Part shown: positions 2,573 through 22,096 of the stretch, piece by piece | How the letters are laid out: every line of letters begins with the position of its first letter | Numbering within the stretch: the stretch's first letter is position 1 | Virus record (IMG/VR): IMGVR_UViG_3300042868_002228 | Location: 1-31,178 of that record | DNA length: 31,178 nt | Reading direction: 5' to 3' (one strand) | Source: a virus | Translations under genes and position numbers: made by a program | The notes under the pieces: generated by a model | Told to the model about the DNA's origin: nothing | The model's database searches: none | Seen by the model: the letters and a program-made list of their open reading frames with translations, nothing else

Positions 2573-4573
2573 ATGTTAAGTAATCGAAGCAGTGGGTTGT
2601 TGGGGATGGCTGCTGATCCGGGGCTGGTTAGTATGCTGGCTGGCATGGAAAAAGACGAGCGACAAGACTATGTTGCGCGGCACTCGGATGACATCAATGT
2701 GGTCATAATGGGTAAAATAGTTAGCGACATAGCCAACAAGCTAGACATTGCTAAAAAAGGCGCACAGCCCGGAACTAAACCGACTGTTCTGGCACAAACA
2801 ATTGGATCAATGGGCTCGGAACCGCAAGGCCCACCCCAAGGGCCACCACAGGCTATGCCACCCCAAGGCGTGCCACAGCAAGCCCCACAACCGGCCATGC
2901 AGCCACAAGGCATGCCGCCACCACAGCAAGCCCCACAACCGGCCATGCCACAACAGGCTCCCCCACCGCCACAGCAAGCCCCACAACCGGCCATGCGGGC
3001 ACCCCAAGGCCAAACCCAGACGGCTGCAGACGGCGGCTACATGGACTCCCGCCTGCCTGAGAACATGGGCATAGGCGCACTACCAGAACGCAGCCTGTCC
3101 AACATGGCGGACGGCGGGATCGTTGGGTTTGCTGATGGCGGAGACGTTCAGCGGTTTCAGTCGGGGGGGACGCCCCGACCTATGTATCCCGGCATGATTG
3201 CGCAGGAGGGGGCGGGGTTGTTGCCGTCCAGGACTGGCTACGAAGGCATGGGCATTCTGGAGTTCATACAGAAATTTGGGGTTGATGCGTACAACAAAAT
3301 CAAAAATGCCGTTCCCGGCGAAAGCACAGAAGAGCGTTTGGCGCGACAAAAACGTGAAGTCTATGAAGCAAGCGTCTCGGGGCAGCGGGATAAAGCAATG
3401 GCGGAAGTAGATAAACCAACCCCCGTTGATTCAATGACACTGCCCCCCCGCCCAATTGGCCCCCTTAGTGCGGGCGCTCCATTCGCCGCTGCTGGCGCGG
3501 CACCGCCGTACGACCCCGCTACGGCAACACGCCGAGATCAGTACGCAAACAAAAATGCTGGTCCCGGTGCGGCCCCCGGTGCGGGCTTCGGCGCTGCTCC
3601 CGGTGCGGCTACTGGCGCAGCTCCCGTGCAACGGCAGGAAGATTACGGCGCACTATTTAACCGCATCAGGGGCGGCATGCCCGACGCCCGCGCCACCATG
3701 CCGAAAGAAATTAAGGAAATGGGCGACTTGCGAGAAGCCCAAGCAAACAAAGCGCTTGCGTCCGAAGAGAATGCAAAAGCGGGTTTAGCGTCCTTGCTGG
3801 GCAAGCGGGAAACGCGTATTGGCGAACGTGAAAAACGCATCGCAGACAAGAGCAGTAACGATGTCAACATGGCGCTCATTGACGCTGGGCTGGCAATGGC
3901 GCAGTCCGTCAAACCGGGTTTTGCAGGAATTGCCGAAGGTCTTGCCACAGGCGCAAAACGCTTCACCGAAGAGTCCCGCTTGACAGAAGCAGCGCGTCAG
4001 AAAATTGAAGAGGCACGTGATGCATACGATGACCTGAAATTCAATCGTGAAGACATGTCCCGCAGACAAATTCTAGCCGCGCAAGGCCAGATCACCGAGG
4101 CTAAAGTTGCGCTTAAAAAAGACGTTGTTGACTACTTGGTTAGAGAGAAAGACATCAGCACCAAAGTGGCCGGGCACCTATTTGACGCGCAGACCGCTCG
4201 AATAGCAGAAGCACAGAAGCAACAGTTCCAAGCGGGTGAAAACGTACTCAACAGGGCCAATACTTTGGAGGCGGCGGGTATATCCTCAAGCGCGGGGTTA
4301 AAAAATCAACTGGGGCTTCTTGAGGCGCTTGGTGGGGCTGCACCGGACAGTGCTATTGCCAAAGGATTTAAGCTGCAAAAACAAGAAGCCCAAGAGCCGA
4401 TGCTGTTTAAAGTGTATACCGAGTCAGTGAGAGATTCGGTTAACGGCGACAAGTTCAAAGCGCAATATCCAGACTTTGCATCGTTCTTAGCGGATTTCAA
4501 CAAACGTGGCGGTCTTGCCACATTGCCGGGGAGCGCTGCCACACCTACCGCACCCGTTGTACTGCCTCGTTGA
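2573..4573 (+). CDS. Pro/Gln- and Gly/Ala-rich protein with helical C-terminal half, probable virion protein
   Basis: 666 aa. The Shine-Dalgarno sequence TAAGGA overlaps the stop codon of the preceding gene, which fixes this ATG. Residues ~80-150 are a Pro/Gln-rich linker with three exact copies of PQQAPQPAM. GGIVGFADGG follows at 181-190, like the GGMVGRYAKGG near the end of the previous protein. Residues ~300-350 are an Ala/Pro/Gly linker. From ~375 the protein is predicted helical and charged (REKRIADKSSNDVNMALIDA and onwards). The order of short ordered N-terminus, flexible linkers and long helical C-terminus fits a virion-assembly or ejection protein, but I recognise no family with known function. 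It sits between two other probable virion genes in the same direction. Confidence 0.85.
   Translation: MLSNRSSGLLGMAADPGLVSMLAGMEKDERQDYVARHSDDINVVIMGKIVSDIANKLDIAKKGAQPGTKPTVLAQTIGSMGSEPQGPPQGPPQAMPPQGVPQQAPQPAMQPQGMPPPQQAPQPAMPQQAPPPPQQAPQPAMRAPQGQTQTAADGGYMDSRLPENMGIGALPERSLSNMADGGIVGFADGGDVQRFQSGGTPRPMYPGMIAQEGAGLLPSRTGYEGMGILEFIQKFGVDAYNKIKNAVPGESTEERLARQKREVYEASVSGQRDKAMAEVDKPTPVDSMTLPPRPIGPLSAGAPFAAAGAAPPYDPATATRRDQYANKNAGPGAAPGAGFGAAPGAATGAAPVQRQEDYGALFNRIRGGMPDARATMPKEIKEMGDLREAQANKALASEENAKAGLASLLGKRETRIGEREKRIADKSSNDVNMALIDAGLAMAQSVKPGFAGIAEGLATGAKRFTEESRLTEAARQKIEEARDAYDDLKFNREDMSRRQILAAQGQITEAKVALKKDVVDYLVREKDISTKVAGHLFDAQTARIAEAQKQQFQAGENVLNRANTLEAAGISSSAGLKNQLGLLEALGGAAPDSAIAKGFKLQKQEAQEPMLFKVYTESVRDSVNGDKFKAQYPDFASFLADFNKRGGLATLPGSAATPTAPVVLPR
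2873..2995 (+). repeat. Three exact 27-bp repeats encoding PQQAPQPAM
   Basis: Identical 27-nt copies occur at 2873-2899, 2921-2947 and 2969-2995, each encoding PQQAPQPAM, with related Pro/Gln sequence between them. The spacing is in frame. Identity at the DNA level points to recent expansion of the linker. Confidence 0.9.
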
Positions 4574-4575
4574 AA

Positions 4576-4625
4576 TAACGCATAATCGTAAGCGTGCGTT
4601 ACAAGGGCCTCGCACAGCCCGTAAC
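4576..4625 (+). other. Two mutually exclusive stem-loops in the leader of the giant gene
   Basis: The 66-bp gap between the 666-aa and 2527-aa genes contains a perfect 7-bp inverted repeat (TAACGCA 4576-4582 with TGCGTTA 4595-4601). It also holds a second hairpin made of GTTAC 4598-4602 with GTAAC 4621-4625 and GGGC 4605-4608 with GCCC 4617-4620. They share bases 4598-4601 and cannot form together. No T-run follows either one, so a simple intrinsic terminator is unlikely. Confidence 0.4.
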
Positions 4626-4639
4626 ACTGCTAAGAGACT

Positions 4640-7600
4640 ATGGCTAATTACATCCAGCTACCAAACGGCGCATACTACCCCGCATTGGAGGGTGAGGATT
4701 ACCAGTCCACAGTCCGAGCAGCATACGCAAAGTACCCCGAAGCCTTTGGGGGCGAGAAAACTCCCGAAGAAACCCCAAAGTCTGGCTTCGTACCAGCGCT
4801 CAAAGCAGGGTTCTCAAGCCTCAAGGGCGACGTAGCTGCGCTTGCAGGACGTACGGGCCTCATGGGGCTTCCCGAGGCAGAGAGTTACATTGCCGAGCAG
4901 GAAGCCTACCAAAAGAAAACCTTTGCTCCCACGAAAGAAGGTTTTTTTGAAGCCCCGCTGGCCAATATTAGTGAGCTGGCTGGCGGCTCCCTGCCCTATA
5001 TGGTGGCCCCGGTTGCGGCGGGTGCCGCGACACTTGCACTGCCGGTAACCGGCGTAGCCGGTACTGCGCTCGGTTTGGGTGCGGCAGGCCTAGCGTCTGC
5101 AGGGCAGTTCACCGGGTCGAACCTGACTCGCCAGATGGCACCGGGCGAAGGCATGGCTAAAAAAAGCCTTGGCGAAACAGACCTTACCGATGCCGCCCTA
5201 GCCGCCATCCCCCAAGCCGCGCTGGACACGCTGAGTATGCGGATGATCCCCGGCCTCGGCAAGATATTTGAGCGTGCGGGCGTTGACTTGTCGGCCAAAG
5301 CAGCTAAAGACTTAGCCAAGGAAGGCATCAAGAAAACGGCTGCGGACTACCTGCTGGCCACCGGCAAGACGATGGGCGTTGAAGGTCTGACCGAAGCTGG
5401 GCAGCAAGTGTTTGAGCGTATGCAGGCGGGTCTGGCCATCGACAACCCAACGGCCCGTGCAGAATATTTTGACAGTTTCATCGGCGGTGCCGTCCTTGGC
5501 GGCATCTTGGCCCCGGCTGGCCGGTACGTTGAACGCGGTCAAGAGCAAACCCGGTTCGATGTAGGCGCACGCGCTGAAGCTGCGAAGACCGCCCAACAGA
5601 ACGCCGCCCAAGAAGCTGAACGCGCCTCCCAAGCCGCCGCTGAAGAAGAAATCTACAAGCAATCTCAACCACACATGGACCTAGTAGAGCAGCAGTACGC
5701 TGATCTACAGAGCAACTTTGCAGACCTCAAAGCGCAGGCCGCAATCAAAGTAGACCCCACCGATCTGGCCGGGATGGCTCGCTTGGCAGACGCCAAGAAG
5801 GCGCTCAAAGCGTTCATGTCCGACGAGGCCACCCGCAGCACCGTCCAAGAGTACAACCGCATTCAGAAGCTCAAGCCGCAGGTAGAGACAGAAGAGACAG
5901 AAGAGACCGAGCAAGAAGCGCCACCCGTTGCGCCTACCGAACAGCCTGCCGAACAACCAGCAGCCATCCCCCTTGCGGACACCCTAGCGCTGCTAGACGC
6001 GCACATCGAAGCCGTGTCAACCCAAGCGCAGGGCGCCGCCCCCGCGCAGATCGTTGAGTTTGGTGCCCAGCAGAAAGAGCTGCAAAACCTACGCACCAAG
6101 ATCAACCGCGTCACGGGCGCTATGAACAAAGCCAACGAGCTTGGCAACCAAGTTTTAGCCGCTAAACACGCCAAGACGCTTTTAGATTTGCAAGCACAGG
6201 TCGGTGCACTGGGCACCCCCGCAACTGCGGGAACTGCGGGAACTGCGGGAACTGCGGGAACTGCGGGAATTGACAACGCGGATGAAACTGTGGTAAGTGC
6301 GGAGACTGCGCCCGAAGCCACCGGAACTGCACCGAAAGCACGCAAGCCAGCCAAACCTACGCCGCTCAAGCCCTACACTGGCATTACGGAGCAGGAACTG
6401 ATGTTCCCCGAGACGGGGGTGGCCGAGTCCGTCATCAACGTTGGCCAAGGCAAACAGCCTGAACAGTCTCGGCAAGAACTGGTGGCGCAGTTCCAAGCTG
6501 CCAAGCAAGTACGCGACCGCTTGGGCATGCAAAACGCCGTTGAGCAAATACGTATCCTCGATGAACGCTCAAAAGCTCGTTCCGAAGGAGCCCGTGGTGT
6601 CGGCGTCCCTACGGGGGAGGTAACTTCCGCTGAGTTGGCACAAGATGTTGCGGGCCAAACCCCGGTTTCCGATACGGGCAAATTTGTACGCGGTGTCGCA
6701 CCTGCGGTTGCACCCACCCCCGTTGCGGTTGACCTAAACAACCCAGACAGCCTTAAACGCGTGTACGGGACGGGAACACCCGAATTAACCGCTACCGGTT
6801 CACAACCCCCAGCGCGGGAGATGACCAACGCGGCAAAAGTTCGCACCACGCCCGACATCCTGCGCAAACAGATTGCCAACCTGCCAGCCCGCATCTCGCC
6901 CGAATCTGAGCAGTTGGTAAGCCGGTTACTGGGTAACTTCGATGAATTTACGGCAGACCCTGAGCGTATGCAGCTCACGGCGGGGTTTCTGCACGACCTT
7001 CGCACCGGCGTTCCGACCGCGCGTGCGCGTGATGTGGTCAGCGAACTTAACGCGCTGGAGACGGCTAAGACCGCTCAAGCCCCAACCCTGTTCGGTGAAG
7101 AGGAACTGCCGGTAGTTGAAGGCCCTCGTAAGCCGTTGCCGGTGCTTGGGTACTCAGAACAAGCGCGGCCACCCAAACCTTTTCCGCATCAAAGAGACAC
7201 CCCCGAGTCGGAAAAAGTCATGGCGGAACTTGAAGCCGAACGCAAAGCGCTGGACAAAGAACGCGAAAACGCCCTGCAGAAAGCTACGACCGAAGCCGAC
7301 AAGCGCGAACGTGCTGCGCTGCAAGAAACCAACGATGCCGCTGTGCGTTACAACGCATTGGAAAAAGAGCTGGCAGACGGCATTGCCCCAATCTACGCCA
7401 GCTACGTAGACGCACAGCGCAATCCCGGCCCGGACAAGGCGCAGGCAGAAAAAAGAAAGCTGGACACGGCGTTTGCCTACACGACGGCGAGAGAAAACAA
7501 CCGGGTCACTTTGGCGGAAGCTAAGCAAGCAACGGACGACACCAAAGCCGCACTCGAAAAAGTCAGGGGCGAGAACACGCAGTCGATCACCGACGCCACC

Positions 7601-10600
7601 ACCGCCATTGACACCGCGCAGCAGAAAGCGCGTGAGGCGCTGCTGAACAAGGGCAAGGGCGCAGAAGTTGCCCGCACCAAAGCCAAGGTGGCCGCGCCCG
7701 CCCCGGCACCCGTGCCAGAGAAAACAACTTCGCTCGTTGACCGTGAGAACGCTGACGCCGCCAAACGCAAAGCAGAGAACGAGCGTGCCGAGCGCCTAGC
7801 TGCCATTCCCGGCGAGTCCGTATCTTTTGAAGCGCACCGCCAAGCCCTTGAAACTTTGGATGATGTCGGCCCACGGTTGGATGATTTGGTTGCCAAAGCT
7901 GCGGATGAGACTTTGCCGGAACCCACACGCAATAAAGCCAAGCGCGAGATCAAGAAACTGAGCCTTGCCCGTAAGTTCTTGGAGTCCACAGGCGAAGGCA
8001 ACGGTGAGTTGCGTTTGCAGGCCGAAGAAGAGATGGCAAAACTGCGAGAAAAGATCGGTACGCAGTCAAAGGCTGTAGTCGAGAACCCAACAAAATCACG
8101 CAAGCAAGAGTTGGCCAAATCCAAGCGCCGCGAAAGAGAGTTGGTCGCGTTGGTCAAAAGTTTCAAGTCTCGTGCCGAGCGTGTAGCTATTAAGACGCCT
8201 ACGGACAAAACCCGTCAAGCTGCGGAAGACCGCGCTGAGCGCTTCACCCAGTTAAACGATGCGCTGAATATCGAAGGCACAACTGGCGCTCTTCCTGCCC
8301 GCAAAGTCGGCCCCGTAGTTCGCAAGGCGCAGGCCGCAGGTAACACCCGCACAGGAGACAACGCAACCACGGAAGAGCGCACTATCGACCCCGGCCTGAA
8401 GCCAACGGAAGGCGGGGCAGTCAAGCCCCCAACGCTCGACCAAGCTGTAAAAGACGCGAACGAACTGGCAAAAGAAAAAATCGACAATCGCAAACCGTTG
8501 ACAGCTAAGGACGTTGCAACGGTGGACTTGCGGCAGCATTTTGCTTTGTATGAAGCTGCCCAGAACATGCGCCGGGGGCTTGAACGAAACCTTGCAGACC
8601 TCGATGCAACGATGGCCCGTGCGGCCCAGTCGGCAACCCCCGCTGCAAAAGACACCATTTTGCGTAAAGAACGCCTTCAGAAAAAAGCGGATATTGAACG
8701 CGATATAGCTATATCTAAAGCCAACGAAGCTCGCCTCGGCAAACTGTATGGTGCGGAAGAGGTGGTAGAAGCTGTAAAAGTGGTAGTGCCGAAAGGAAAG
8801 AAAGCAAAAGCGAAAAAGACACGTTCGCAAGTGTTTGACGAGAGCGAAGACCTCGAAGCTTTTACGGCACCCAGCCAGTTTGACGCTACTCGCATTTCCA
8901 CGCCGCTGTCGGCACAGGCTGTTGAGATGGCGCGGGATGGGCGCATCCTTGATTTGGTGGCTGAGCTTGCTAAGAACGGTTCGACCCCGGCCATTCGGGC
9001 TACTGCAGCCAAGCTGCGGCCCATGTTGATGCGTACCAAGCTGTCCGTGGACGAGGACGTTAACTACAAAGGCGAGTCGGTGGCGGGGCTGTACGACCCT
9101 CAAGACAACAGTATCACGATGCACCCGGACGGGTTGACTGAAGAGGACGTGTTGCACGAAATGGGGCACGCGGCTACGGACCGTGTATTGCTGGCAGACC
9201 CGGCGACATTGACGGCAGACCAACGCGATGCACGTAAAGGGCTTGAGGCGTTGCACGCCAGTATTGCCAAGAGCGACTTGTTCAAGGGTGAGCAAGGTAT
9301 TGCTGACGTACGCGAGTTTGCCGCAGAGGTCGAATCCAACAAGGGCTTCCGCAATAAGCTGGACTCCGTGGGCAAGCCGACCACGCTCTTGCAACGAGTG
9401 CTGGGCTTCTTCAAGCGCATGTTGGGTATGCAGACCGCGATGTCCAGCAAAGAAGCGCAAGCGCTAGTTGACCGCATACTGTCTCCGTCACGCAAACTGG
9501 CGGCTAAAGCAGCGCCTAGCATGTTCCGCAAGGGTGCTCAATACGAGTCCAACGACGCTCTGTCCGACTTAGCTCAAAGTGCTGTTGCACAACCCCAAAC
9601 TTTGCGTGAGAAGGCCGGTTCCAACAAAGCGCTGCGGTTCGAGATGGAAGTGTCCGACATGCGGGCAGGCGTTATCAAGGCGCTGAACAACGCTGTCGCC
9701 GACCCGAACACTATGGGCAGCACGCGGGAGTTCCGTCAGGCCGTGTTCAGCATCACCGCAGCCGATCAGAGCATGTCTGTTACCCAGATGTCGCTCAACA
9801 CTGGCCCCCCTGAAATGTTCAAGGACTCCAAGGGGTACTACGAAGTACGTAGCTCCAAGAAGAATGATGCTGGCGCTGTGTTTGACGCCGTGCAGGACAT
9901 CCCAGACACCTACGGCAACACCGAAGCCAAGATGGGGCTGGCGTCCGCGTACATGATTGCCCAACGGGCAATGAACAAAGGCTTGAAGAAGCTGGACTTG
10001 GGCGCACTGGGCGTAACTGAAGCAAAACTAGCTGCCGCTATGGCTGCAGTCAACGCTGACCCCAAGCTGAAAGCCGCGCTGGAGAATGTACGCGCCAAGT
10101 ACAACGCCTACAACCGGGGCATGATCGAGTGGCTGTCCTCACCGCAGGTAGCGGCCATTACGCAGGCTGACGCTGCAGCGTACCTAAAGGACGAGGACTA
10201 CGTTCCCTACTACCGCGTTCGTGCAGACGGCGTAGCGGAGCTGGTCTTTGGCGGCGAGAAGACGATCACGATTGGCGACATCCGCCACCAGCCGTACCTT
10301 GCCGAACTCAAAGGCGGCAACGACAAGATCATGCCCTTGGACCAGTCGATCATGCGTAACACCATGCTGCTGGTCACCAAGGGCATGAGCAACATGGCCA
10401 TGAAAAACGTAGGCTACGCCATGCAGGCGGCAGGCCAAGGTCTTGGCCCCGTGGACAAAACAGGCAAGCCAACCAACCTGATGCCTATTTTCTCTGGCAA
10501 AGGCCCCGCTGATGCCAGCGTTATCCGCTGGACGCAAGAACCTGACCCTAAAAAGCCTGCGGACACGGGCGACCGCTGGCTGCGCGTACAGACCAACGAC

Positions 10601-12223
10601 ACGATGTTCGGCGGTGTCCCTGCCGAACTGATTATCAAGTCGTTGGAGGGCGCACACCTGACGCTGCCTGCGTTCCTGAAATGGGGCGGTATCGCCGGTG
10701 ACTTGCTGCGTTCAGGCGTGACGCGCACGCCCATCTACTTGGCTCGCCAGTTGTTCCGCGACCCGTTTGCAGCCACGGCCACCTCCGGGCTGGACTACGG
10801 CCCCGTCACGGCCATCTTCAAGGCCAACCGGGAGTTCCTGAAGATTGTGGCGGGCAAGAGCGAAGCTGGCGCTAAGATGATCGAGAAAGGCTTGCTGCAG
10901 TCCGGGCTGTTCGAGGGCGACCCGGCCAACATGTCCAAGATCGCGCTGCAGTTGGCCGGTGAGAAGTCCCAAGGGGTGCTCGACAAGTTGTTCGCCAAGG
11001 CCGACAGGCTGGCGCTGCAAGCCGACGCCGCTACCCGTGCGCTGATCTACGAGAACGCCCTCAAGAACGGCCTGTCCGAAGTCGAGGCCAGCCACTCAGT
11101 GCGCGAGTCGATGAACTTCTCCAAGCGCGGGCTGTCGCCCACCGTGCAGTACGCCAGCCGCATGATACCTTTCTTCAACGCGCAGATTCAGGGTTTGAGC
11201 GTGCTGTTCAAGGCGGCGACGGGCAACATGCCCGCCAACGATGTGCTGAAGATCAAGCGCAAGTTCTACAACAACGCCATGATGCTCACGGGGTTCGGCA
11301 TAGCCTACGCGATGGCTATGGACGACGACGATTATTACAAGAACGCCAAGCCGAGAGACCGGTACACGAACTTCTTTGTGCCCCTGCCGGGTGTGGACGA
11401 GCCGCTCAAGCTGCCCATCCCCTACGAGTTTGGTTTCTTCTTCTCCGCAGGCGTGGCGTTGGCGGACGCCATCAAGGGCGAGGTGGATACCCCGCAGCAA
11501 CTGCGTGCGATCAAGGACATGTTCGTCGGCTCTATCCCCGGCGCTAGCAGCAACTTTGCGCCGCAGATCATCAAGCCGATGGCCGAGATATATGCCAACA
11601 AGAGCTTTTTCTCTGGCAACGCAATAGAGTCCGAGCGCCAGCGGAAGCTGGACCCCGAGGCACGGTACAACGCCCACACCACGGAAGTCGCCAAGTGGAT
11701 GGCCACGATGGTTCCGGTTTTGTCCCCCATCCAGATCGAGCACATCGTGTCCGGCTACTTGGGGCAGATACCTTTGATGGTGGTGGCAACCACAAATGAT
11801 TTGTTCCGCGACGGCAAAACAGAACCTACCCGCAAGCTGTCTGAGATGCCGCTGATTGGCAGCTCGTTCCAGCGCAAGTACGGTGGCGAGGAAGCGGACG
11901 TTGTGTACAAGCTGGCTACGGAAGCTTCGCAGGCCAAACGCACTTTCGACGACTACCGCAAGACAGGCAAAATCCAAGAAGCCAAGGACTACCTGCAGGA
12001 GCACCGCGCTGAGATTGCTGTTGCCCCAATGGCAATGCAGTACCAAAAGGTCATGGGGGCGCTGCGTACGCAGGAAGAAATAATCCGCAACTCCAAAGCG
12101 TCTTCGGACGCCAAAGAAAAACGGATCGACGAGTTGAACGCCCAGCGCCAGCTACAGTCCGAGCGCTACCTCAAGGCCATCAGGCGGGCGCAAGATGCCT
12201 CCGGTAAAACCACACCCCCATAA
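4640..12223 (+). CDS. Giant polyvalent virion protein with zinc-metallopeptidase and LPD38-like regions
   Basis: 2527 aa, one uninterrupted frame, the largest gene of the window. The start is preceded by TAAGAGA. The N-terminus (IQLPNGAYYPALEGEDY, ~4-20) is of a type seen at the start of phage internal proteins. Residues ~108-155 and ~280-294 are Gly/Ala-rich hydrophobic stretches that could contact a membrane. Residues ~840-1430 are charged and helical, probably coiled coil. A zinc peptidase site HEMGH lies at 1506-1510, with EFAAEVE (E1559 or E1563) as likely third ligand. The last ~900 residues contain RESMNFSKRG (~2155) and PFFNAQIQGL (~2177), which resemble large polyvalent protein-associated domain 38. 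Known family context: such proteins are packaged and injected with phage DNA. I infer a role in DNA ejection or in countering the host at entry. The precise substrate of the peptidase is unknown. Confidence 0.9.
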   Translation: MANYIQLPNGAYYPALEGEDYQSTVRAAYAKYPEAFGGEKTPEETPKSGFVPALKAGFSSLKGDVAALAGRTGLMGLPEAESYIAEQEAYQKKTFAPTKEGFFEAPLANISELAGGSLPYMVAPVAAGAATLALPVTGVAGTALGLGAAGLASAGQFTGSNLTRQMAPGEGMAKKSLGETDLTDAALAAIPQAALDTLSMRMIPGLGKIFERAGVDLSAKAAKDLAKEGIKKTAADYLLATGKTMGVEGLTEAGQQVFERMQAGLAIDNPTARAEYFDSFIGGAVLGGILAPAGRYVERGQEQTRFDVGARAEAAKTAQQNAAQEAERASQAAAEEEIYKQSQPHMDLVEQQYADLQSNFADLKAQAAIKVDPTDLAGMARLADAKKALKAFMSDEATRSTVQEYNRIQKLKPQVETEETEETEQEAPPVAPTEQPAEQPAAIPLADTLALLDAHIEAVSTQAQGAAPAQIVEFGAQQKELQNLRTKINRVTGAMNKANELGNQVLAAKHAKTLLDLQAQVGALGTPATAGTAGTAGTAGTAGIDNADETVVSAETAPEATGTAPKARKPAKPTPLKPYTGITEQELMFPETGVAESVINVGQGKQPEQSRQELVAQFQAAKQVRDRLGMQNAVEQIRILDERSKARSEGARGVGVPTGEVTSAELAQDVAGQTPVSDTGKFVRGVAPAVAPTPVAVDLNNPDSLKRVYGTGTPELTATGSQPPAREMTNAAKVRTTPDILRKQIANLPARISPESEQLVSRLLGNFDEFTADPERMQLTAGFLHDLRTGVPTARARDVVSELNALETAKTAQAPTLFGEEELPVVEGPRKPLPVLGYSEQARPPKPFPHQRDTPESEKVMAELEAERKALDKERENALQKATTEADKRERAALQETNDAAVRYNALEKELADGIAPIYASYVDAQRNPGPDKAQAEKRKLDTAFAYTTARENNRVTLAEAKQATDDTKAALEKVRGENTQSITDATTAIDTAQQKAREALLNKGKGAEVARTKAKVAAPAPAPVPEKTTSLVDRENADAAKRKAENERAERLAAIPGESVSFEAHRQALETLDDVGPRLDDLVAKAADETLPEPTRNKAKREIKKLSLARKFLESTGEGNGELRLQAEEEMAKLREKIGTQSKAVVENPTKSRKQELAKSKRRERELVALVKSFKSRAERVAIKTPTDKTRQAAEDRAERFTQLNDALNIEGTTGALPARKVGPVVRKAQAAGNTRTGDNATTEERTIDPGLKPTEGGAVKPPTLDQAVKDANELAKEKIDNRKPLTAKDVATVDLRQHFALYEAAQNMRRGLERNLADLDATMARAAQSATPAAKDTILRKERLQKKADIERDIAISKANEARLGKLYGAEEVVEAVKVVVPKGKKAKAKKTRSQVFDESEDLEAFTAPSQFDATRISTPLSAQAVEMARDGRILDLVAELAKNGSTPAIRATAAKLRPMLMRTKLSVDEDVNYKGESVAGLYDPQDNSITMHPDGLTEEDVLHEMGHAATDRVLLADPATLTADQRDARKGLEALHASIAKSDLFKGEQGIADVREFAAEVESNKGFRNKLDSVGKPTTLLQRVLGFFKRMLGMQTAMSSKEAQALVDRILSPSRKLAAKAAPSMFRKGAQYESNDALSDLAQSAVAQPQTLREKAGSNKALRFEMEVSDMRAGVIKALNNAVADPNTMGSTREFRQAVFSITAADQSMSVTQMSLNTGPPEMFKDSKGYYEVRSSKKNDAGAVFDAVQDIPDTYGNTEAKMGLASAYMIAQRAMNKGLKKLDLGALGVTEAKLAAAMAAVNADPKLKAALENVRAKYNAYNRGMIEWLSSPQVAAITQADAAAYLKDEDYVPYYRVRADGVAELVFGGEKTITIGDIRHQPYLAELKGGNDKIMPLDQSIMRNTMLLVTKGMSNMAMKNVGYAMQAAGQGLGPVDKTGKPTNLMPIFSGKGPADASVIRWTQEPDPKKPADTGDRWLRVQTNDTMFGGVPAELIIKSLEGAHLTLPAFLKWGGIAGDLLRSGVTRTPIYLARQLFRDPFAATATSGLDYGPVTAIFKANREFLKIVAGKSEAGAKMIEKGLLQSGLFEGDPANMSKIALQLAGEKSQGVLDKLFAKADRLALQADAATRALIYENALKNGLSEVEASHSVRESMNFSKRGLSPTVQYASRMIPFFNAQIQGLSVLFKAATGNMPANDVLKIKRKFYNNAMMLTGFGIAYAMAMDDDDYYKNAKPRDRYTNFFVPLPGVDEPLKLPIPYEFGFFFSAGVALADAIKGEVDTPQQLRAIKDMFVGSIPGASSNFAPQIIKPMAEIYANKSFFSGNAIESERQRKLDPEARYNAHTTEVAKWMATMVPVLSPIQIEHIVSGYLGQIPLMVVATTNDLFRDGKTEPTRKLSEMPLIGSSFQRKYGGEEADVVYKLATEASQAKRTFDDYRKTGKIQEAKDYLQEHRAEIAVAPMAMQYQKVMGALRTQEEIIRNSKASSDAKEKRIDELNAQRQLQSERYLKAIRRAQDASGKTTPP
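6224..6268 (+). repeat. Five perfect tandem 9-bp repeats (Thr-Ala-Gly) in the giant gene
   Basis: ACTGCGGGA occurs five times head to tail in frame, encoding TAG five times at residues 529-543 of the giant protein. The unit is a multiple of three, so slippage would lengthen or shorten a linker without breaking the frame. Confidence 0.95.
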
Positions 12224-12383
12224 GGCCAGCGCGGATGCCCACCTTGGCTTGGGCATCAAACACACGCAGGAAGACGGCCCGTTTAAGGCCGTCTTCCCTA
12301 ACCGCTTCGGGGTCTAGGCAGGGGACAAAGAACCCCTGCCCGCGCTCAACCTTTTCCCAAGGGTAGGAGGGGTTCAGCGCCAT
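12180..12383 (-). CDS. Small conserved phage protein, 67 aa (PWE..GQGFFVP type)
   Basis: 67 aa, last gene of the minus-strand block. Its start overlaps the 3' end of the primase-helicase by 38 bp and its 3' end runs 44 bp into the antisense of the giant late gene. The protein reads like a genuine family rather than noise: YPWEKVERGQGFFVPCLD near the N-terminus and GIRAGLMGVWFYRR near the C-terminus. The first part matches a pattern (YPW..M.VGDSFFVP) I know from small phage proteins of unknown function. The Shine-Dalgarno sequence is weak (GAACGAAG), so translation may depend on coupling to the primase-helicase. Three perfect stem-loops lie within or at the edges of the gene. An alternative is that the frame is a chance by-product of a terminator region, but the family resemblance argues against this. 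Confidence 0.72.
   Translation of the reverse strand: MALNPSYPWEKVERGQGFFVPCLDPEAVREDGLKRAVFLRVFDAQAKVGIRAGLMGVWFYRRHLAPA
12234..12257. other. Perfect 8-bp stem-loop in the convergent zone
   Basis: GATGCCCA (12234-12241) pairs with TGGGCATC (12250-12257) around an 8-nt loop, 11 bp after the stop codon of the giant late gene. No T-run follows on either strand. It could act as a 3' end stabiliser for the late mRNA. Confidence 0.5.
12269..12297. terminator. Perfect 11-bp stem-loop, candidate bidirectional terminator
   Basis: GGAAGACGGCC (12269-12279) pairs perfectly with GGCCGTCTTCC (12287-12297) around a 7-nt loop. It sits between the ends of two convergent blocks, where a terminator is expected. 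There is no clear T-run on either side (minus strand continues TGCGTGTGTTTG), so a canonical intrinsic terminator is not proven. It also lies inside the 67-aa minus-strand gene. Confidence 0.5.
12317..12340. other. Perfect 8-bp stem-loop in the convergent zone
   Basis: GGCAGGGG (12317-12324) pairs with CCCCTGCC (12333-12340) around an 8-nt loop, just beyond the stop codon of the primase-helicase in its direction of reading. It is the third strong hairpin within about 110 bp and also falls inside the 67-aa gene, where it encodes part of GQGFFVPC. Confidence 0.5.
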
Positions 12384-15297
12384 CGTCTTCGTTCAGTGGG
12401 CGGCTTATCTTTATGGCAGCTACGCGCATCAAGGGGCCGTTGGTCCGGGCCATCAAGTCCTTGCGGGGGTTGTACGAGACTTCCATGTGTGGGTGCACCT
12501 CCAACTGCTTCTTAAAGTCAGCGTAGCCAAAGCTCATGCTGGAGCAGAACGTCCGCAGCACACGCTCCTCGATGTACAGGTCTGAGCAACCCGGTGTCAG
12601 GCCGTTCTCCACACGCCCCTGCACGGAAGTCCGCGTTGTCGTTTTGTCGATTGCCGCGCCGTCCCCCATCTGCGCCAAGACGCCGCCCGAAGCACCGAAG
12701 TTCACCGTGACGAAGTGGCCGTTGTTCTCGCGGATGAAGGCGTTCAGGATGTCCTCGGCGGTGCGCTTGTTGCTGTTCACGGCCTTACGCATGGCGTCTA
12801 TGCGCCTGCCAAACGCCGCAATGATCTCGGGCATGGGGATGTTGACGATCCCCGCGTTGTTGTCGCTGAACAATATGCCTGCCGCAATCGCTGTGCCCAC
12901 GCCTGCCATCCAGAAGCGCTCGTCGTTGGGGGCCTTGAACTGCAGGTACATCTGCCGTACCACATCAGGAACCATCTCAGCGATCTTGTCGAAGTTGTCC
13001 ACCAAGTACTGCGAAAAGATGTCGCCAGCCACGCCGTAGTTCTGCGCCAAGGACTTGATGATCTCAATCTCATGGGGTTCCCACACCAGCGTGGTGTCCA
13101 TATCGAACTCGATGACCCGGCGAATCTCCCCCTCGGATGCGTGCTTGCGGGTGCCAAGCAGCGTGTCAACCACGTAGGTGTTCGAGGACATCAGCGCGTT
13201 CGACATCCATGTGGAGTTGTTGAGGCGCTCTTTGTTGGTGCCTGCCTCCATGCGCTCCTTACCCCGGCCCTCGGTCATGTCCAGTAGGAACTCGGTGAAC
13301 CACTCAGGAGACACGCGGTTCTTGCTGGTGATCTCGTCGGTGATGAGGGGTAGGCTGCTGAGCATCCCTAGCCGCTGCTGCATGGCTACCGCCGACGTAC
13401 TCTTGCCCGTCCGGTAGTGCACCGGGTGACCCCAAATTGACGCCGCGCCTTCGAGCGCCAGCGACTTGCCTGTGCCTGAGTACGTTGACGCGCAGTGGAA
13501 CGTCATGCCGTAGATGCCGGTGAACTTCATCAGCGGTGCGGCAGCGCCCACCAAGATAATCGCCAACTGGTCGTACAGCTTCTTCTGGATCAGCAGGTTA
13601 ATCACGTTGCGCCAGCCCTGTAGAGTGCCAGTGGGTTGCGTGTTGTTCACGATGTTCTCCAGCCCGACCATAGGTATCTCCACGGGCTTGACCTTGGGTG
13701 CGTAAATCCTGCCTGCATACACGAAGGTGTTGTCCTTCTGCCAGCCGTAGCTCGCAGGTACTTTGACGGGTAGCTTCTCAATGCTCATTTTCTCAACGCT
13801 CGCTCGTATGTAATCAAAAAAGTTCTTGTCGTTGCCAGAGCCAAAGGCGGCAAGGATGTTCTGCGTGGCCAAGCTCTTCATCGTCTCGTCTTTGCTGACG
13901 CAACTGCGCTGTGGCAGCAAGACCGTTTGCGTCCCTTCCGGGCGCAACGCCAGCATGTGCACCACATGCTCCCCGGCGCTGTCGAGGATGTTGATGGGAA
14001 ACAGGTCGTAGCTAAGCAGCAGCGTGAGCTTCTTGGACTCCGTGCCGTCCTCATTCTCCGAGCGCTTCTCAATGTACACGCCACCATTGCGCCCGTACGC
14101 ATAACCAAACGGGGCCTCGGGGCGCAGTATCTTGCGAAACGTGTCCGACCCGGTGACCTCTACTTCCTTTGCCTCTGTAACGACAGCCGTATCACGCCCC
14201 AGCGCCAGCGGGTTTGTAATCTTTCCCCAGTGCTTGCAGTTGGTGCAAACGCCGGGGTTCTCCGAGTCAAACTTGGTGCACGGGTACGGGCCTTTGATCT
14301 CGGCCAGCTTGGCGTACATCCGGTTCGTGTCGTAGGGGTGCAGCCCGCTCAACCACGTAGCTGCACGCTCGCCATCCTCGCACTTCTGTGCGATGCTCAA
14401 CATCCCCCGCCACAGCGGCTCCATCCCGTCGTTTTCGGCGTTCAGGACATAGGACTCTAGCTGCCCGCAGCCATCACCCTTCTTAGTGCGCTTGTAGATG
14501 TTGCCGAACTTGGTGATGCTGTTGGCAAACATCTGCACGCCCGTTGTCGTCGGCGCACTCTTGGGCCGCTGTCCGGGTAGCATGAGCGCGGTGCTTGGCG
14601 TGGGCTTCGCGGCGTGTGCGATAGGCACTAGGTGGCTTTCCAGCAGGGCGCGGATGTCCTCGATGTCGAAGAAGCCCCCGCCGTGCATGAACCGCACCCT
14701 AGTCTCGCCGCGCACGCGCTTGCCACTCTTGACGCCCGTGTTGACCGTTGCTGGTACGCGCAGCACCCGCGCTGCATCGCCCGTCACTGTGGGGTCGATG
14801 CCGAGTTTCTTCTGCACGCACAGGCGCTTGAACGCTTCTGCCACAGGCTTCCACTCCGCGATCTCCACAGCTTCCCGCAGGGGCCAGTAGGCGTGCACGC
14901 CGCCCCCCGAAGCCACCATCCACGGCTCGCCTAGCCCCGCCAGTCCCACCTCGGCGGAGAACTCCATGATGGCCTGCGCGGCAGCGCGTGCCGAGGGGTA
15001 CGCCTTGGGCTTGAACTCCCCGTGCTCATCTGGCAAATCTTTCGGGTGGTTGCAGTCGATGTCGATGGCAATGCACTTGGCCATCTGGGTGTTGGTGGCA
15101 AGGCGCTTGTCAGCGCTGCCAAACGTGCTCAGTCCAAAGTAGACATCAAAGTTCGACTTCTTCCACCGCTCTACCGCTACCTGCGCTTCCTCCAGCGTAT
15201 CCGCATACACATGTTCCTTCTTCGTCAGCTCTGCCACACAGTAACGCCCGTTACCGGGAGGTGGCAAAACCGCCGCTAGAAAATCAAGCGGTTCCAT
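12346..15297 (-). CDS. Primase-helicase fusion: archaeo-eukaryotic-type primase plus P-loop helicase
   Basis: 983 aa. It would synthesise primers and unwind DNA at the phage fork. The N-terminal primase carries AIDID (D79, D81), SGGGVH (S130-H135) and a DAARVLRVPATVN segment (174-186), which fit the three motifs of AEP primases. A zinc-binding cluster follows at C340, C351 and C354 with H356 nearby, of the sort seen beside PriCT-type primase domains. The C-terminal half has a Walker A motif SGTGKS (607-612) and Walker B LPLITDE (E655). Its surroundings resemble phage DUF927-like superfamily 3/AAA helicases. TAGGG precedes the ATG. The gene is followed by the 67-aa gene and preceded by a 52-aa gene. 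Function is clear at domain level; which helicase superfamily applies would need a profile search. Confidence 0.88.
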   Translation of the reverse strand: MEPLDFLAAVLPPPGNGRYCVAELTKKEHVYADTLEEAQVAVERWKKSNFDVYFGLSTFGSADKRLATNTQMAKCIAIDIDCNHPKDLPDEHGEFKPKAYPSARAAAQAIMEFSAEVGLAGLGEPWMVASGGGVHAYWPLREAVEIAEWKPVAEAFKRLCVQKKLGIDPTVTGDAARVLRVPATVNTGVKSGKRVRGETRVRFMHGGGFFDIEDIRALLESHLVPIAHAAKPTPSTALMLPGQRPKSAPTTTGVQMFANSITKFGNIYKRTKKGDGCGQLESYVLNAENDGMEPLWRGMLSIAQKCEDGERAATWLSGLHPYDTNRMYAKLAEIKGPYPCTKFDSENPGVCTNCKHWGKITNPLALGRDTAVVTEAKEVEVTGSDTFRKILRPEAPFGYAYGRNGGVYIEKRSENEDGTESKKLTLLLSYDLFPINILDSAGEHVVHMLALRPEGTQTVLLPQRSCVSKDETMKSLATQNILAAFGSGNDKNFFDYIRASVEKMSIEKLPVKVPASYGWQKDNTFVYAGRIYAPKVKPVEIPMVGLENIVNNTQPTGTLQGWRNVINLLIQKKLYDQLAIILVGAAAPLMKFTGIYGMTFHCASTYSGTGKSLALEGAASIWGHPVHYRTGKSTSAVAMQQRLGMLSSLPLITDEITSKNRVSPEWFTEFLLDMTEGRGKERMEAGTNKERLNNSTWMSNALMSSNTYVVDTLLGTRKHASEGEIRRVIEFDMDTTLVWEPHEIEIIKSLAQNYGVAGDIFSQYLVDNFDKIAEMVPDVVRQMYLQFKAPNDERFWMAGVGTAIAAGILFSDNNAGIVNIPMPEIIAAFGRRIDAMRKAVNSNKRTAEDILNAFIRENNGHFVTVNFGASGGVLAQMGDGAAIDKTTTRTSVQGRVENGLTPGCSDLYIEERVLRTFCSSMSFGYADFKKQLEVHPHMEVSYNPRKDLMARTNGPLMRVAAIKISRPLNEDDGAEPLLPLGKG

Positions 15298-16765: not shown

Positions 16766-17170
16766 TCAGTTGGAAGGCTTGGTTACGCGGATTTCAAAAT
16801 CCGAAAATGCGTTCAGGCCGGGTGGCACTGAACCGGGGTTGTCCGCCAAGAACTGCGCCATGTTGGTCTGGGCAATTCTTTTCTCCAGCAAGTCAACGGC
16901 ATCGTTCGCAACAATGAAGTCTTTGAACGCGTCCCAGTCTTGCGTGGAGTAGCGGGTCTTCTGCACCATCGACACCGTGCCGAAGGTGGTGTTCACAGTC
17001 TTCACGCCGAGCGCTTGCATCTGGTCTTTCATTGCAAACTTCAGCGTGTTCTGCTTCTCTTTCAACTGCTCGACCTTGGTGTCATAGTCCTTGGTCAGCT
17101 CGTCAATTTCGGCCTTTATCTTGCGGTAGATGCGGGCCAGTTTATCCATCGGGATCATGTCTTCAGTCAT
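16766..17170 (-). CDS. Conserved phage coiled-coil protein, 134 aa, unknown function
   Basis: 134 aa. Residues ~8-50 form a charged heptad-rich helix. The rest (GVKTVNTTFGTVSMVQKTRY, DWDAFKDFI, LLEKRIAQTNMAQFL, PPGLN) matches a pattern common in uncultured phages, usually next to the ssDNA-binding-like gene as here. The family has no role I can name; binding to DNA or to the neighbouring protein is a guess. AAAGGAG precedes this ATG at good spacing, which favours it over M7. It is the first gene downstream of the 17.2-kb promoter and operator candidate. Confidence 0.85.
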   Translation of the reverse strand: MTEDMIPMDKLARIYRKIKAEIDELTKDYDTKVEQLKEKQNTLKFAMKDQMQALGVKTVNTTFGTVSMVQKTRYSTQDWDAFKDFIVANDAVDLLEKRIAQTNMAQFLADNPGSVPPGLNAFSDFEIRVTKPSN

Positions 17171-19088: not shown

Positions 19089-19751
19089 TCAGTGTTTAGG
19101 GTGGTGTACACAAGTGGTGACTGGGCACCACGGGCAAAGGGGTGAGGATTTGGGGTTCCACACGCCCGTCTCGTGCGCCTGTTCAATACGGGCAATGCGC
19201 TTGCGGTATGACCACCACTCGCCCGCTGCCTGATCGACGCCTACGCTTATCTTAACCATATCGTTTTTCACGACAAAGAGCAATGCAGCGTTGACCTTGC
19301 GAATGTGTGGGAAGTGCGCGAACACCATGATGGCCATGAGCTTGAGCTGTTCACGATCCGGGTACTTGTTGTTGCCCGTCTTGTAGTCCACCACCCATGC
19401 CGTCAGGTTGTCGTCGTCCATGATGATGAGGTCGGCGATACCGCGCACCCACACCTCCGGCCCCGTCCACCCGCACGGCTGCAGGTCGGTAGTCAGCGCC
19501 ATCTGGTACTCCACTAGCTTGCGTCCGGGCTTGGCCTTGAGCGCCTCAAGCGTATCGGCAATGAAGTCGAACTGCTTGGGCAACGGCTTGCCTTCACCGA
19601 TGTAGTCCTCGGCTGCTTTGTGCAGCTCCGTTCCGTACAGCGTTGCCTGCGTCTCCGTGAACTTGTGCTTCTTCAGCACCCGCACCTCGTGGTACTTCTT
19701 GGGGCAGGACTCGTAGTCCTTCAGCGCTGAGTGTGACCAGACGACTTTCAT
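19089..19751 (-). CDS. PD-(D/E)XK nuclease of RecB/Cas4 type with a four-cysteine cluster
   Basis: 220 aa. The family signature is complete: WSHSALKDYESCPKKY at the N-terminus, H44 in GTELHKAAEDY, D107 in VRGIADLI, D122-K124 in VVDYKTG, and Q135 in the following helix. C16 together with C206, C209 and C214 (PLCPWCPVTTC) has the spacing of the iron-sulphur cluster in Cas4 and AddB-type nucleases. The probable role is a DNA exonuclease in recombination or in degradation of host DNA. It starts in a TAATG overlap with the upstream HExxH gene, so the two are translationally coupled. No cas1 or CRISPR repeat is in the window, so a CRISPR adaptation role is not supported. Confidence 0.9.
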   Translation of the reverse strand: MKVVWSHSALKDYESCPKKYHEVRVLKKHKFTETQATLYGTELHKAAEDYIGEGKPLPKQFDFIADTLEALKAKPGRKLVEYQMALTTDLQPCGWTGPEVWVRGIADLIIMDDDNLTAWVVDYKTGNNKYPDREQLKLMAIMVFAHFPHIRKVNAALLFVVKNDMVKISVGVDQAAGEWWSYRKRIARIEQAHETGVWNPKSSPLCPWCPVTTCVHHPKH

Positions 19752-20071
19752 TAAAACCTCGCGGAGTCGATGGCTCGTGACAGCCGGTGGGCGAACTCTT
19801 TAACGAACTCTTCGTTACGGTTCAGGTTGTGCCGCCCCATGTCTTCAAGGACGGCGTGTGTCAGCTCGTGCCAGAACGTGTCCCGAACCTCGGCATCGGC
19901 AAGGTACCGCCCCGAGTTAGGGTGCTTGGTGGCGATCTTGATGCTGCGCTCAGCGTAGTGCGTGCGCCCCACGCAGTTCTTCTCGATCAGCGCTTCCACC
20001 ACTTCGACCGAATACATCTTCTGGCCTACCCGCATCCTGCGCGGGAACACGGCTTTTATTTTTGTTGTCAT
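19751..20071 (-). CDS. Small HExxH metalloprotein, 106 aa
   Basis: 106 aa. FWHELTHAVLEDMG holds the zinc motif H68-E69-xx-H72, with E87 or E88 in NEEFVKEFAHRL as likely third ligand. The preceding strand and loop (THYAERSIKIATKH) are typical of minimal phage zincin-like proteins related in style to SprT. It may cleave a host or phage protein, for example a DNA-bound protein at the fork, but no substrate can be read from the sequence. GGAGAAGC precedes the ATG. It lies 9 bp after the polymerase stop and its own stop overlaps the nuclease start (TAATG). Confidence 0.8.
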   Translation of the reverse strand: MTTKIKAVFPRRMRVGQKMYSVEVVEALIEKNCVGRTHYAERSIKIATKHPNSGRYLADAEVRDTFWHELTHAVLEDMGRHNLNRNEEFVKEFAHRLSRAIDSARF

Positions 20072-20080
20072 CTGCTTCTC

Positions 20081-22096
20081 CTATCCTTTGGCTAATCCGT
20101 ATCTACGGTGAGCACCACCGTCAGCGGCTAGGGGAATCCCCGGCATGTATTTCGGCTCCATAGTCATTTGCGCCAAGACCCAAGTCTTAGCGAAATCAAC
20201 CTCTTCATCAGGCACAACGGCAATAAGCTCATCGTGCACAGTCCCAGCCACAAAGTATTTTTTTGACACCCGTAGCATACCATCAGTCATGACGATCCGT
20301 GCGGTCGCCTGCGTCACGTTGTTGGCGATCTTGCCTGCGTACAGTTTGGTGGCGTCAACCCCGTACACCCACTCAAGCTCACCCTTCTTGCCCTCCACCT
20401 TCTGCTGCTGGCGCAGGTCGGGGTACAGCAGCTTCATGCCGTTGGGCAGCTCGATCTCTTCCTTGCGGAACGTCAGGCACTTGTACGTAAACTCCTTGCC
20501 GCCGAACAGCGAAGTCTGGATCAGGCCCGACAGCATCTCCCAGAACGAGACGACCTGATGCGCGGTCTGACGGTAGATGTCGATGATCTTCTTGGCAGCT
20601 ACGCAGTGGATGAGCAGCTCCCGCTCGGTGCAAGTGTGGGGTATCTCGGACATCTTGAGCAAGTTCTCCTCCCAGTCCATGAACTTCTGCACGTACGCCT
20701 GCGTCACGCCCAACTGCAGCGCCTCGGCCTTGGAGTAACGCAGCGGCGGAGCGCCAAGGAACCCCACCAGAAGCTGCGCTGCGAACGATGCCCAGCCCAA
20801 CCCATACCCAGCCCCCAGCAACGCGCTCTTGGCCGACTGGCGGTGCACCGGGTGGCTTTCTTTGGTCATGTCGGGGATCGAGAACATCTGAGCGCCGAAG
20901 GCAGCGTACGGATCGCCACCGGCATTGAAGATGTGCAACATCTCGTCATAGTCCGACAGCCACGCCAGCACACGCGGCTCGATCTGGGACAAGTCGCCGA
21001 CCACCAATTGATGCCCTTCGGGGGCCATGATCGCTTTACGCAGGAACGACCCGCGCTTGAGGTTCTGCATGTTGATGGCGCTGCCCTTGCTGGCCGTCCA
21101 GCGGCCCGTGGCTGCACCGTAGTAGGACAGGGGTACCGGTAGGGTGCCCCGGCCTGCGATCTCAAGGAAGCGCTGCGCCCGTGTGCGCTCCGTCGTGGAC
21201 TTGACCTTGAGCCGCGCCTCACACAGCGCCCGCACATCGTCGTTGGTTCCGTTGAGCATGGCTTGGAACATGGCGTCGGTCTTGGCGAACGCGTAGTTCT
21301 CCCCCACAGGGTTGGGCGTCTTGACCGTGGGCTTCTTTCTCTTCGTGGGCGACGGCATACCCACGGCCTCCAGCAGCGCGGCGAACTGCCCGTTGCTTGC
21401 CAGTGCGGCGTCCGTCACACCCAAGCGTTGCAGCAGCTCCTCACGCTTCTCCTTCTCCTCTTCCAGCGCGTTAGCCAGCATGAGCTTGTCCAACTGCAGG
21501 GTAGGCTGCGTGTACATCTTGAGCGTCATGTCGATAAGGCGTAGTTCCGACTTAGGGTAGCCCGCCGAGAGTCTTTTGAATATCTCTTCGCAGAGATATA
21601 CGTCGTGCTTGCAATACTCAGCAAGTTCTCTTTCAACCTCACGCTCAAGGCTGGCATGTCCATCCGTAGAGTGTACGGCTGTCCCTTTTGGGGGAAGACC
21701 AAAAGCCTCTGCAAGTTTGGCGAGGGAATTGCCAGCTTCCACGCCTCGTAAAGCTCGTGCCATTGACAGCGTGTCGAAGATGAAGCAGGGGTGTACTCCG
21801 TATACCCATTCGAGAATCGAAACATCGAATTGGGCGTTATGCGCAAGGATTGCTGTCTTAGTCCAGTCGTAGGTCGATAGGATTCGATGAAGCTCATCTC
21901 CTCCATACCATTGAGTAATTGCATCGGTGCCGTATTCATGTAGGCACGCTCCGAATGCAAGGAATTTCTCATTGCGTATGTACTCCTCGGTTGTCATCTT
22001 GCTGAGCGTGTATGGCTCGGCTGTCCATGACGTTGGTTTAGTAGACCACCGCGTCTCGAAGTCCACGGTGATGATGGTCTTAAAAGGCTGGCTCAA
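20081..22096 (-). CDS. Family A DNA polymerase with 3'-5' exonuclease
   Basis: 671 aa, replicative polymerase of T7/Pol I type. Exonuclease motifs: DFET (D12, E14), NAQFD (D91) and YCKHD (Y161, D165), all intact, so proofreading is expected. Polymerase motifs: A GDLSQIEPR with D368, B RQSAKSALLGAGYG with K423 and Y431, and C VHDE at 620-623. Position K+4 of motif B, equivalent to Phe762 of E. coli Pol I, is Leu (L427). There is no 5'-3' exonuclease domain. The start is TTG: no in-frame ATG fits, GGGAG stands 7 nt upstream, and the TTG overlaps the stop of the upstream 95-aa gene (TTGA). It is coupled to the small gene before it and followed closely by the HExxH gene. Confidence 0.95.
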   Translation of the reverse strand: MSQPFKTIITVDFETRWSTKPTSWTAEPYTLSKMTTEEYIRNEKFLAFGACLHEYGTDAITQWYGGDELHRILSTYDWTKTAILAHNAQFDVSILEWVYGVHPCFIFDTLSMARALRGVEAGNSLAKLAEAFGLPPKGTAVHSTDGHASLEREVERELAEYCKHDVYLCEEIFKRLSAGYPKSELRLIDMTLKMYTQPTLQLDKLMLANALEEEKEKREELLQRLGVTDAALASNGQFAALLEAVGMPSPTKRKKPTVKTPNPVGENYAFAKTDAMFQAMLNGTNDDVRALCEARLKVKSTTERTRAQRFLEIAGRGTLPVPLSYYGAATGRWTASKGSAINMQNLKRGSFLRKAIMAPEGHQLVVGDLSQIEPRVLAWLSDYDEMLHIFNAGGDPYAAFGAQMFSIPDMTKESHPVHRQSAKSALLGAGYGLGWASFAAQLLVGFLGAPPLRYSKAEALQLGVTQAYVQKFMDWEENLLKMSEIPHTCTERELLIHCVAAKKIIDIYRQTAHQVVSFWEMLSGLIQTSLFGGKEFTYKCLTFRKEEIELPNGMKLLYPDLRQQQKVEGKKGELEWVYGVDATKLYAGKIANNVTQATARIVMTDGMLRVSKKYFVAGTVHDELIAVVPDEEVDFAKTWVLAQMTMEPKYMPGIPLAADGGAHRRYGLAKG

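Follow-up and report, generated by a model that had tools for sequence, protein, structure and literature searches.

Exchangeable cassettes, a predicted zincin and a candidate clamp-binding motif in a giant, probably ejected phage protein

In this study, we have analyzed a 31,178-base virus record (IMG/VR record IMGVR_UViG_3300042868_002228, the whole of which is referred to here as the window) and have found that it encodes a giant cysteine-free protein, in one open frame from an ATG that corresponds to the single gene described in the first-pass annotation, whose relatives differ from it by the exchange of internal cassettes. We read the family as a four-part mosaic of an N module (N), a middle (M), a peptidase (Z) and a C module (C). 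The peptidase cassette is a zincin by its modeled fold and conserved ligands and a putative peptidase, and the poorly conserved middle appears to retain a QxxLF motif that is spaced as in bacterial clamp-binding motifs; the cassette architecture and the motif are additions to what the first-pass annotation had noticed. The giant is most likely the largest of three proteins ejected with the phage DNA, and we would put at about even the chance that it is an ejectosome-type protein delivering the putative zinc peptidase together with a candidate clamp-binding arm. The features are listed in Table 1.

Table 1. Positions in the window of the giant gene, its parts and its two companion genes
Feature	Position	Strand	Remark
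Companion gene 1, 849 aa	14..2563	+	Q/N/A-rich, without cysteine
Companion gene 2, 666 aa	2573..4573	+	P/Q/A-rich, without cysteine
Giant gene	4640..12223	+	2527 aa, cysteine-free
N module, aa 1-300	4640..5539	+	Close relatives: 72-91% identity to five others
Hydrophobic stretch, aa ~119-152	4994..5095	+	Hydropathy
Middle cassette, aa ~325-1404	5612..8851	+	Swapped out in many relatives; few order-promoting residues
QELMF, aa 585-589	6392..6406	+	Sole Q..[LM]F site in the window's middle
QAPTLF, aa 813-818	7076..7093	+	Weak six-residue variant of the Q..[LM]F-type motif
Peptidase cassette, aa 1405-1636	8852..9547	+	Zincin class a
HEMGH, aa 1506-1510	9155..9169	+	Predicted zinc ligands H1506 and H1510; general base E1507
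EFAAEVE, aa 1559-1565	9314..9334	+	E1559, likely third ligand
C module, aa 1637-2527	9548..12220	+	Conserved chassis
LPD38 (PF18857), aa 2230-2406	11327..11857	+	Pfam match

Modules of the giant and their exchange

Relatives were collected in three overlapping IMG/VR scans that gave 8 loci, the best 80 of 96, and 17 loci. Once contained copies were removed, 78 open reading frames were left, including two from distant named phages (L010 and L011), which were excluded from the 67 middles and from the class counts given below. The 40 full-length proteins compared for mosaicism also exclude L068 (disrupted reading frame), L093 (incomplete at its end) and L102 (no proper motif). In L068 the giant is split over two frames of 2712 and 584 aa at about 2839-12675, which reflects either a frameshift or a sequencing error. 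With the sequence patterns applied, genome_contigs yielded no relative.

The window protein and that of L002 are 91% identical in N, 92% in Z and 93% in C, and 23% identical in M, for which shuffled middles provide a baseline of 20.1% (maximum, 23.6%). Among the 780 pairs formed by the 40 full-length proteins, some of which are near-identical so that neither pairs nor sequence counts are independent events, N and C were both at least 55% identical in 156, and in 124 of these 156 the middle fell below 35%. The module edges were sharp in the five pairs examined. Other parts also differ singly: between L033 and L034 it is the peptidase (N, 91%; M, 84%; Z, 21%; C, 90%), and between L030 and L037 it is the N module (N, 33%; M, 76%; Z, 90%; C, 86%). 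L002, L008 and L014 have in common a middle (73-76% identity) and a C module (85-89%); their peptidases belong to classes a, b and c, respectively. The middle of L093 is 50-55% identical to that of the window in two stretches, yet its peptidase is of class c. These comparisons show exchange of the zincin classes independently of the neighboring parts.

As the first-pass annotation had noted, the protein has a hydrophobic N-terminal stretch and a long charged region, which is the middle (30% charged residues, with neither tryptophan nor cysteine). Neither this middle nor any of the four other middles scanned had a Pfam match above the cut-off, and the composition of the window's middle suggests that it is probably largely unstructured. 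An LPD38-like C-terminal part had also been proposed, and the profile search bore this out (E = 5.5e-26; 92.2 bits against a gathering cut-off of 27). The conserved C module extends well outside the LPD38 match; two PHROGs families of unknown function lie across aa 2001-2513, and the zincin is the sole enzymatic domain recognized in the giant. A model of the C-terminal part had 69 BFVD matches with E values of 0.001 or less, and comparison of the C module with PDB sequences gave nothing significant. In structure predictions by segments, as had been suggested, the peptidase model matched zincins, and the model of aa 1405-2527 as a whole returned nothing usable from the PDB with Foldseek. The LPD38 polyvalent proteins of phages Pag-Yong1, phiARM81mr and PTXU04 end in LPD38 as the giant does; unlike it, phiARM81mr has ParB and methyltransferase domains and Pag-Yong1 has a sub-threshold ART match.

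The peptidase cassette

Three sequence classes of motif occupy the peptidase slot, namely, HExxHA (class a, 25 sequences), HExxGHxG (class b, 24) and HEVGxHxG (class c, 16). One of them is present in 63 of the 65 proteins in which 500 aa or more precede the C module, the exceptions being L102 and L038. The motif lies within 500 aa of the C module in 58 proteins and about 1000 aa away in five proteins with HEGTH (L030, L036, L037, L039 and L061); such a motif occurs in 0.9% of shuffled 500-aa stretches. L037, the sole HEGTH protein scanned, had no Pfam match above the cut-off.

The motifs HEMGH and EFAAEVE had been singled out in the first-pass annotation as an intact zinc-peptidase site. In alignments from which near-copies were omitted (21 of the 25 class-a, 23 of the 24 class-b and 15 of the 16 class-c sequences), H1506, E1507, H1510, A1511, E1559, F1560 and E1563 were invariant in 21/21 class-a proteins, and the H, E and H of HExxxH were invariant in 23/23 class-b and 15/15 class-c proteins. 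Conservation of the ligands therefore holds in class a; some relatives lack HExxH, but these carry an HExxxH zincin class in the same slot. Profile-profile probabilities were 2.4 for a against c, 80 for a against b and 97 for b against c, so that b and c probably form one superfamily and the three classes are to be understood as sequence classes rather than three folds.

The class-a profile matched three solved phage proteins, 9sfn (E = 2e-10), 8vb2 (PhiM1 gp48; E = 1.5e-8) and 23sg (E = 1.7e-8), each of which has HExxHA, and it matched lethal factor with an E value of 0.014. By counting in the alignments, E1559 falls on residue 735 of lethal factor, which we take to be a zinc ligand. The AlphaFold2 model of the isolated domain (pLDDT 86.5; pTM 0.84) was aligned in the VIA second look with 8vb2 (Z = 9.8; 3.4 A over 141 aa), with N4 vRNAP residues 2124-2368 (Z = 9.6; 4.1 A over 182 aa) and with lethal factor (Z = 5.7). 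Foldseek placed zincins among its top rows, none at an E value of 0.001 or less; the zincin assignment is consequently based on the profile search together with the VIA second look. Outside phages, the nearest solved folds are lethal factor and the Pro-Pro endopeptidases.

Both phage matches are to ejection proteins. The N4 residues correspond to the range that the authors of that structure name C1, a zincin-like domain with HExxH that is followed by a large helical C2 in a protein that is ejected, as described in the text of PMC12633501. Like the window protein, N4 gp50 is giant and free of cysteine, and its motif is HELVHAST; it differs in having an RNA polymerase in front and no Q..[LM]F site, and the two show no clear pairwise sequence match. 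The tetrameric ejection protein PhiM1 gp48 likewise has a class-a zincin followed by several hundred further residues, which superpose poorly (rmsd 26.6 over 342 aa). At 1263 aa, against 2527 aa for the giant, it is too short to hold a middle of a thousand residues. Asp268-Asp528 was termed endolysin/exotransglycosidase-like by its authors, and the main text of that paper (PMC11440229) nowhere uses the words metallo, peptidase or protease. Residues 289-504 of 8vb2 chain A match zincins by profile and fold and contain HEAAHAKT, which suggests that this published domain of the PhiM1 ejectosome is not a wall hydrolase but a zincin.

Zincins, including HEXXXH types, are described as widespread in polyvalent proteins and as resembling lethal factor in the text of Iyer et al. 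2017 (PMC5512222). A nearly obligatory but exchangeable zincin slot, a conserved QxxLF and a cysteine rule spanning three systems were not found in the literature searched. Since the slot is nearly always filled and its content can be swapped, the targets of phage zincins could be tested by means of natural swaps within one chassis.

The middle cassette and its QxxLF motif

The pattern Q..[LM]F occurs at 81 sites in the 67 middles. It is present in 51 of them and in 49 of the 56 with a length of 800 aa or more, and its rate (10.15 per 10,000 aa) compares with 1.16 in 289 other mechanically called ORFs from the loci listed. Examples from relatives are QMDLF (L005), QRSLF (L002) and QFDLF (L009). 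Sixty shuffles yielded 11.9 sites (maximum, 21). The shorter spacing Q.[LM]F was at shuffled level (10 sites against 11.7), and the longer spacings Q...[LM]F (24 against 12.0) and Q....[LM]F (23 against 12.6) were about twofold enriched, above the maximum of 20 in all 60 shuffles; the spacing of the window's QAPTLF is thus only mildly enriched in the family. By peptidase class, Q..[LM]F was found in 22/23 middles of class a, 14/19 of class b, 13/13 of class c and 0/1 without an assigned class, five of the seven long middles that lack it being of class b.

The motif is also conserved beyond its surroundings. Between middles that are 25-60% identical, the partner sequence retained it in 415 of the 611 cases aligned (68%), where 8% would be expected from flank identity; the 611 cases represent 64 distinct motifs, with overlapping pairs counted in both directions. 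Control triplets in the same aligned middles were fully identical in 7%, and motif positions were kept at 0.76 compared with 0.37 for the flanks. When non-redundant residues were counted, the excess was smaller (17 sites against 2.9; maximum of 10 in 500 shuffles). L093, with its related middle, has QGLMF in a context similar to that of QELMF in the window. The scanned stretches (2456 and 478 aa) of L010 and L011, the distant LPD38 giants from named phages, contain no Q..[LM]F.

The bacterial clamp-binding consensus is given as QL(S/D)LF in the text of PMC9690074. At the level of the family, Q..[LM]F resembles this consensus; QELMF of the window is a loose match that lacks the preferred S or D. 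In phage records that may be incomplete, DnaN was detected in 0/12 and a family-A polymerase (PolA) in 11/12. The family-A polymerase of the window (20081-22096, minus strand) itself contains QTSLF, as do the copies in L002 and L014; this string had been a candidate internal control and was dropped, as it lies within the polymerase domain.

There is a substantial chance, a little short of even, that Q..[LM]F has nothing to do with the clamp and is a peptidase cleavage site, a short motif of some other kind, or an artefact due to glutamine-rich sequence and shared ancestry. The middles are partly related to one another, the nearby spacings are mildly enriched too, the residues that follow the motif are often G or P and then E, and an unbiased triplet scan of the non-redundant set ranks Q..LF only 22nd, behind 21 other patterns. 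Against these alternatives stand the peak at a single spacing (81 sites, against 10, 24 and 23 for its neighbors), the retention of the motif over its flanks, the occurrence of the motif alongside every peptidase class, and L093, in which a middle of the window type, motif included, is joined to a class-c peptidase. The clamp reading, drawn as it is from sequence, is the most testable new idea to emerge from the analysis. No report of a clamp motif in ejected or polyvalent proteins was found in the literature searched, which covered few subscription papers. If the motif works, it would give a candidate role to the long featureless parts of ejected giants.

Ejection context and possible functions

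The trio formed by the giant and the two companion genes has no cysteine in 4,042 aa, compared with 6.7 to 26.9 per 1000 in seven other proteins of the window, and 42 giants read from stop to stop contain 22 cysteines in 121,310 aa, 33 of the 42 having none from the N module on. The ejected proteins of three other phages behave similarly: there is one cysteine in 2,261 aa of T7 gp14-16, none in 1,309 aa of P22 gp7, gp16 and gp20, and none in 4,294 aa of N4 gp50-52, of which gp51 and gp52 are presumably the other ejected N4 proteins (three in 4,593 aa if gp54 is included). Other virion proteins of T7, P22 and N4 have 6.0 to 7.8 cysteines per 1000, and intracellular proteins of T7 and P22 have 11.0 to 15.9. 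Absence of cysteine is not exclusive to ejected proteins, since P22 gp26, N4 gp56 and the scaffold of the relative G001 also lack it. For N4-type vRNAPs this absence is already in print (PMC3915230, PMC4837373), and the text of PMC3915230 ties it to passage through the tail; a wider rule across ejection systems was not found in the literature searched. Absence of cysteine may offer a simple way to flag ejected proteins in metagenomic sequences.

The first-pass annotation had likened the trio to the T7 internal core, as three consecutive late genes of rising size. The sizes do not rise (849, 666 and 2527 aa), and those of the T7 and P22 sets differ from them; the comparison otherwise stands broadly, in that the giant is probably of ejection type, has companion genes, comes after late genes in one relative and belongs to a cysteine-free trio, as T7 gp14-gp15-gp16 and P22 gp7-gp20-gp16 are likewise adjacent genes for ejected, nearly cysteine-free proteins. 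The two upstream genes had no significant family match, and relatives of companion gene 1 are present in many loci among the matches listed. In the relative G001/L009, genes for terminase, P22 portal, scaffold, head protein, Hc3 and fibres all run in the same direction, and the giant follows these P22-type late genes if the record is assumed to be circular and the order is read across its ends; of such late-region genes, the window holds only the trio. A single head type for all relatives was considered and not established, the P22 portal profile being found in 1/4 records. T7 gp16 (L109, 30595-34551) has an HExxH string, HERLH, at aa 559, and T7 gp15 has one QAELF; the P22 set has neither HExxH nor Q..[LM]F. 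Mosaicism of ejection proteins has been discussed in Swanson et al. 2022 (PMC8954989).

We infer ejection, proteolysis and clamp binding as follows. The three proteins would be ejected with the DNA, the giant sharing the general build of ejectosome proteins from short-tailed phages. The C module would be the fixed chassis for packaging or for the body of the ejectosome, the hydrophobic stretch of the N module could enter the membrane, and between the two modules sit the exchangeable middle and a putative zinc endopeptidase, which after ejection would cut a protein. The middle would reach the cytoplasm, where its QxxLF motif or motifs may bind the host beta sliding clamp; such binding could hold back replication of the host at a time when the phage is being copied by its own family-A polymerase. 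Clamp binding requires an arm in the cytoplasm, and parts of an ejectosome may not leave the envelope. The fullest version of the scheme, in which an ejected disordered arm, best conserved in its clamp-binding motif, captures the host beta clamp and stops or takes over host replication before phage expression while the interchangeable zinc peptidase of the same chain disarms a host protein, is tentative and, in our judgment, clearly less likely than not.

The zincin may have a different task. The first-pass annotation had suggested that it might process the ejection machine itself, an idea that is not new: zincin processing of polyvalent proteins was proposed, with reference to P1 DdrB processing, in the text of Iyer et al. 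2017 (PMC5512222). Such a cis-acting enzyme would free the middle from the C chassis by cutting the giant at the cassette border, either inside the head or once the protein has been ejected. It is an appreciable possibility, if clearly below an even chance, in that the zincin of class-b and most class-a proteins lies beside the junction of the variable middle with the C module and a zincin is present whatever the middle; P22 gp7, moreover, loses 20 residues to host OpdA according to a database record note. However, N4 vRNAP, which also has an HExxH, enters the virion without processing (PMC5512222), the motif of class c and of the five HEGTH proteins lies 300-1000 aa from the C module, and L033 and L034 are alike in all parts except Z. 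Where classes swap while both flanks stay constant, different peptidases would all need to accept any cut site that lies in the flanks; these swaps lean slightly toward a host protein, or a cut site inside the cassette, and we regard a host protein as a somewhat likelier substrate than the giant itself.

It is improbable that the zincin has retained its fold but serves the ejectosome only in packaging or as a structural element, with no protease role in practice. The N4 region that includes this domain is required for encapsidation (PMC5512222), but the ligands and general base are invariant in all aligned class-a proteins, as is HExxxH in classes b and c, and with three sequence classes filling the slot a specific packing surface is unlikely. 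Still less probable is an envelope-opening role, in which the zincin would replace the peptidoglycan-hydrolase domain of T7 gp16 (PMC8954989). Wall-degrading domains do swap between ejection proteins, as that paper relates, and the PhiM1 authors' label for the homologous domain (PMC11440229) would fit. An SLT transglycosylase domain was found in none of the 12 records, a result that covers one muralytic family in records that are possibly incomplete. The nearest non-phage folds speak against this role, as lethal factor and the Pro-Pro endopeptidases cut ordinary peptides.

The remainder of the window, downstream of the giant, carries minus-strand genes for a DUF927 primase-like protein, an SNF2 helicase, a PD-(D/E)XK nuclease and the family-A DNA polymerase. 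On the same strand, a 134-aa protein (16766-17170) resembles Pam3 gp33 and, weakly, Mu Gam; a 106-aa protein (19751-20071) has a weak, sub-threshold likeness to SprT/WLM, another zincin-type family; and an M28-type peptidase gene lies at 29979-31097.
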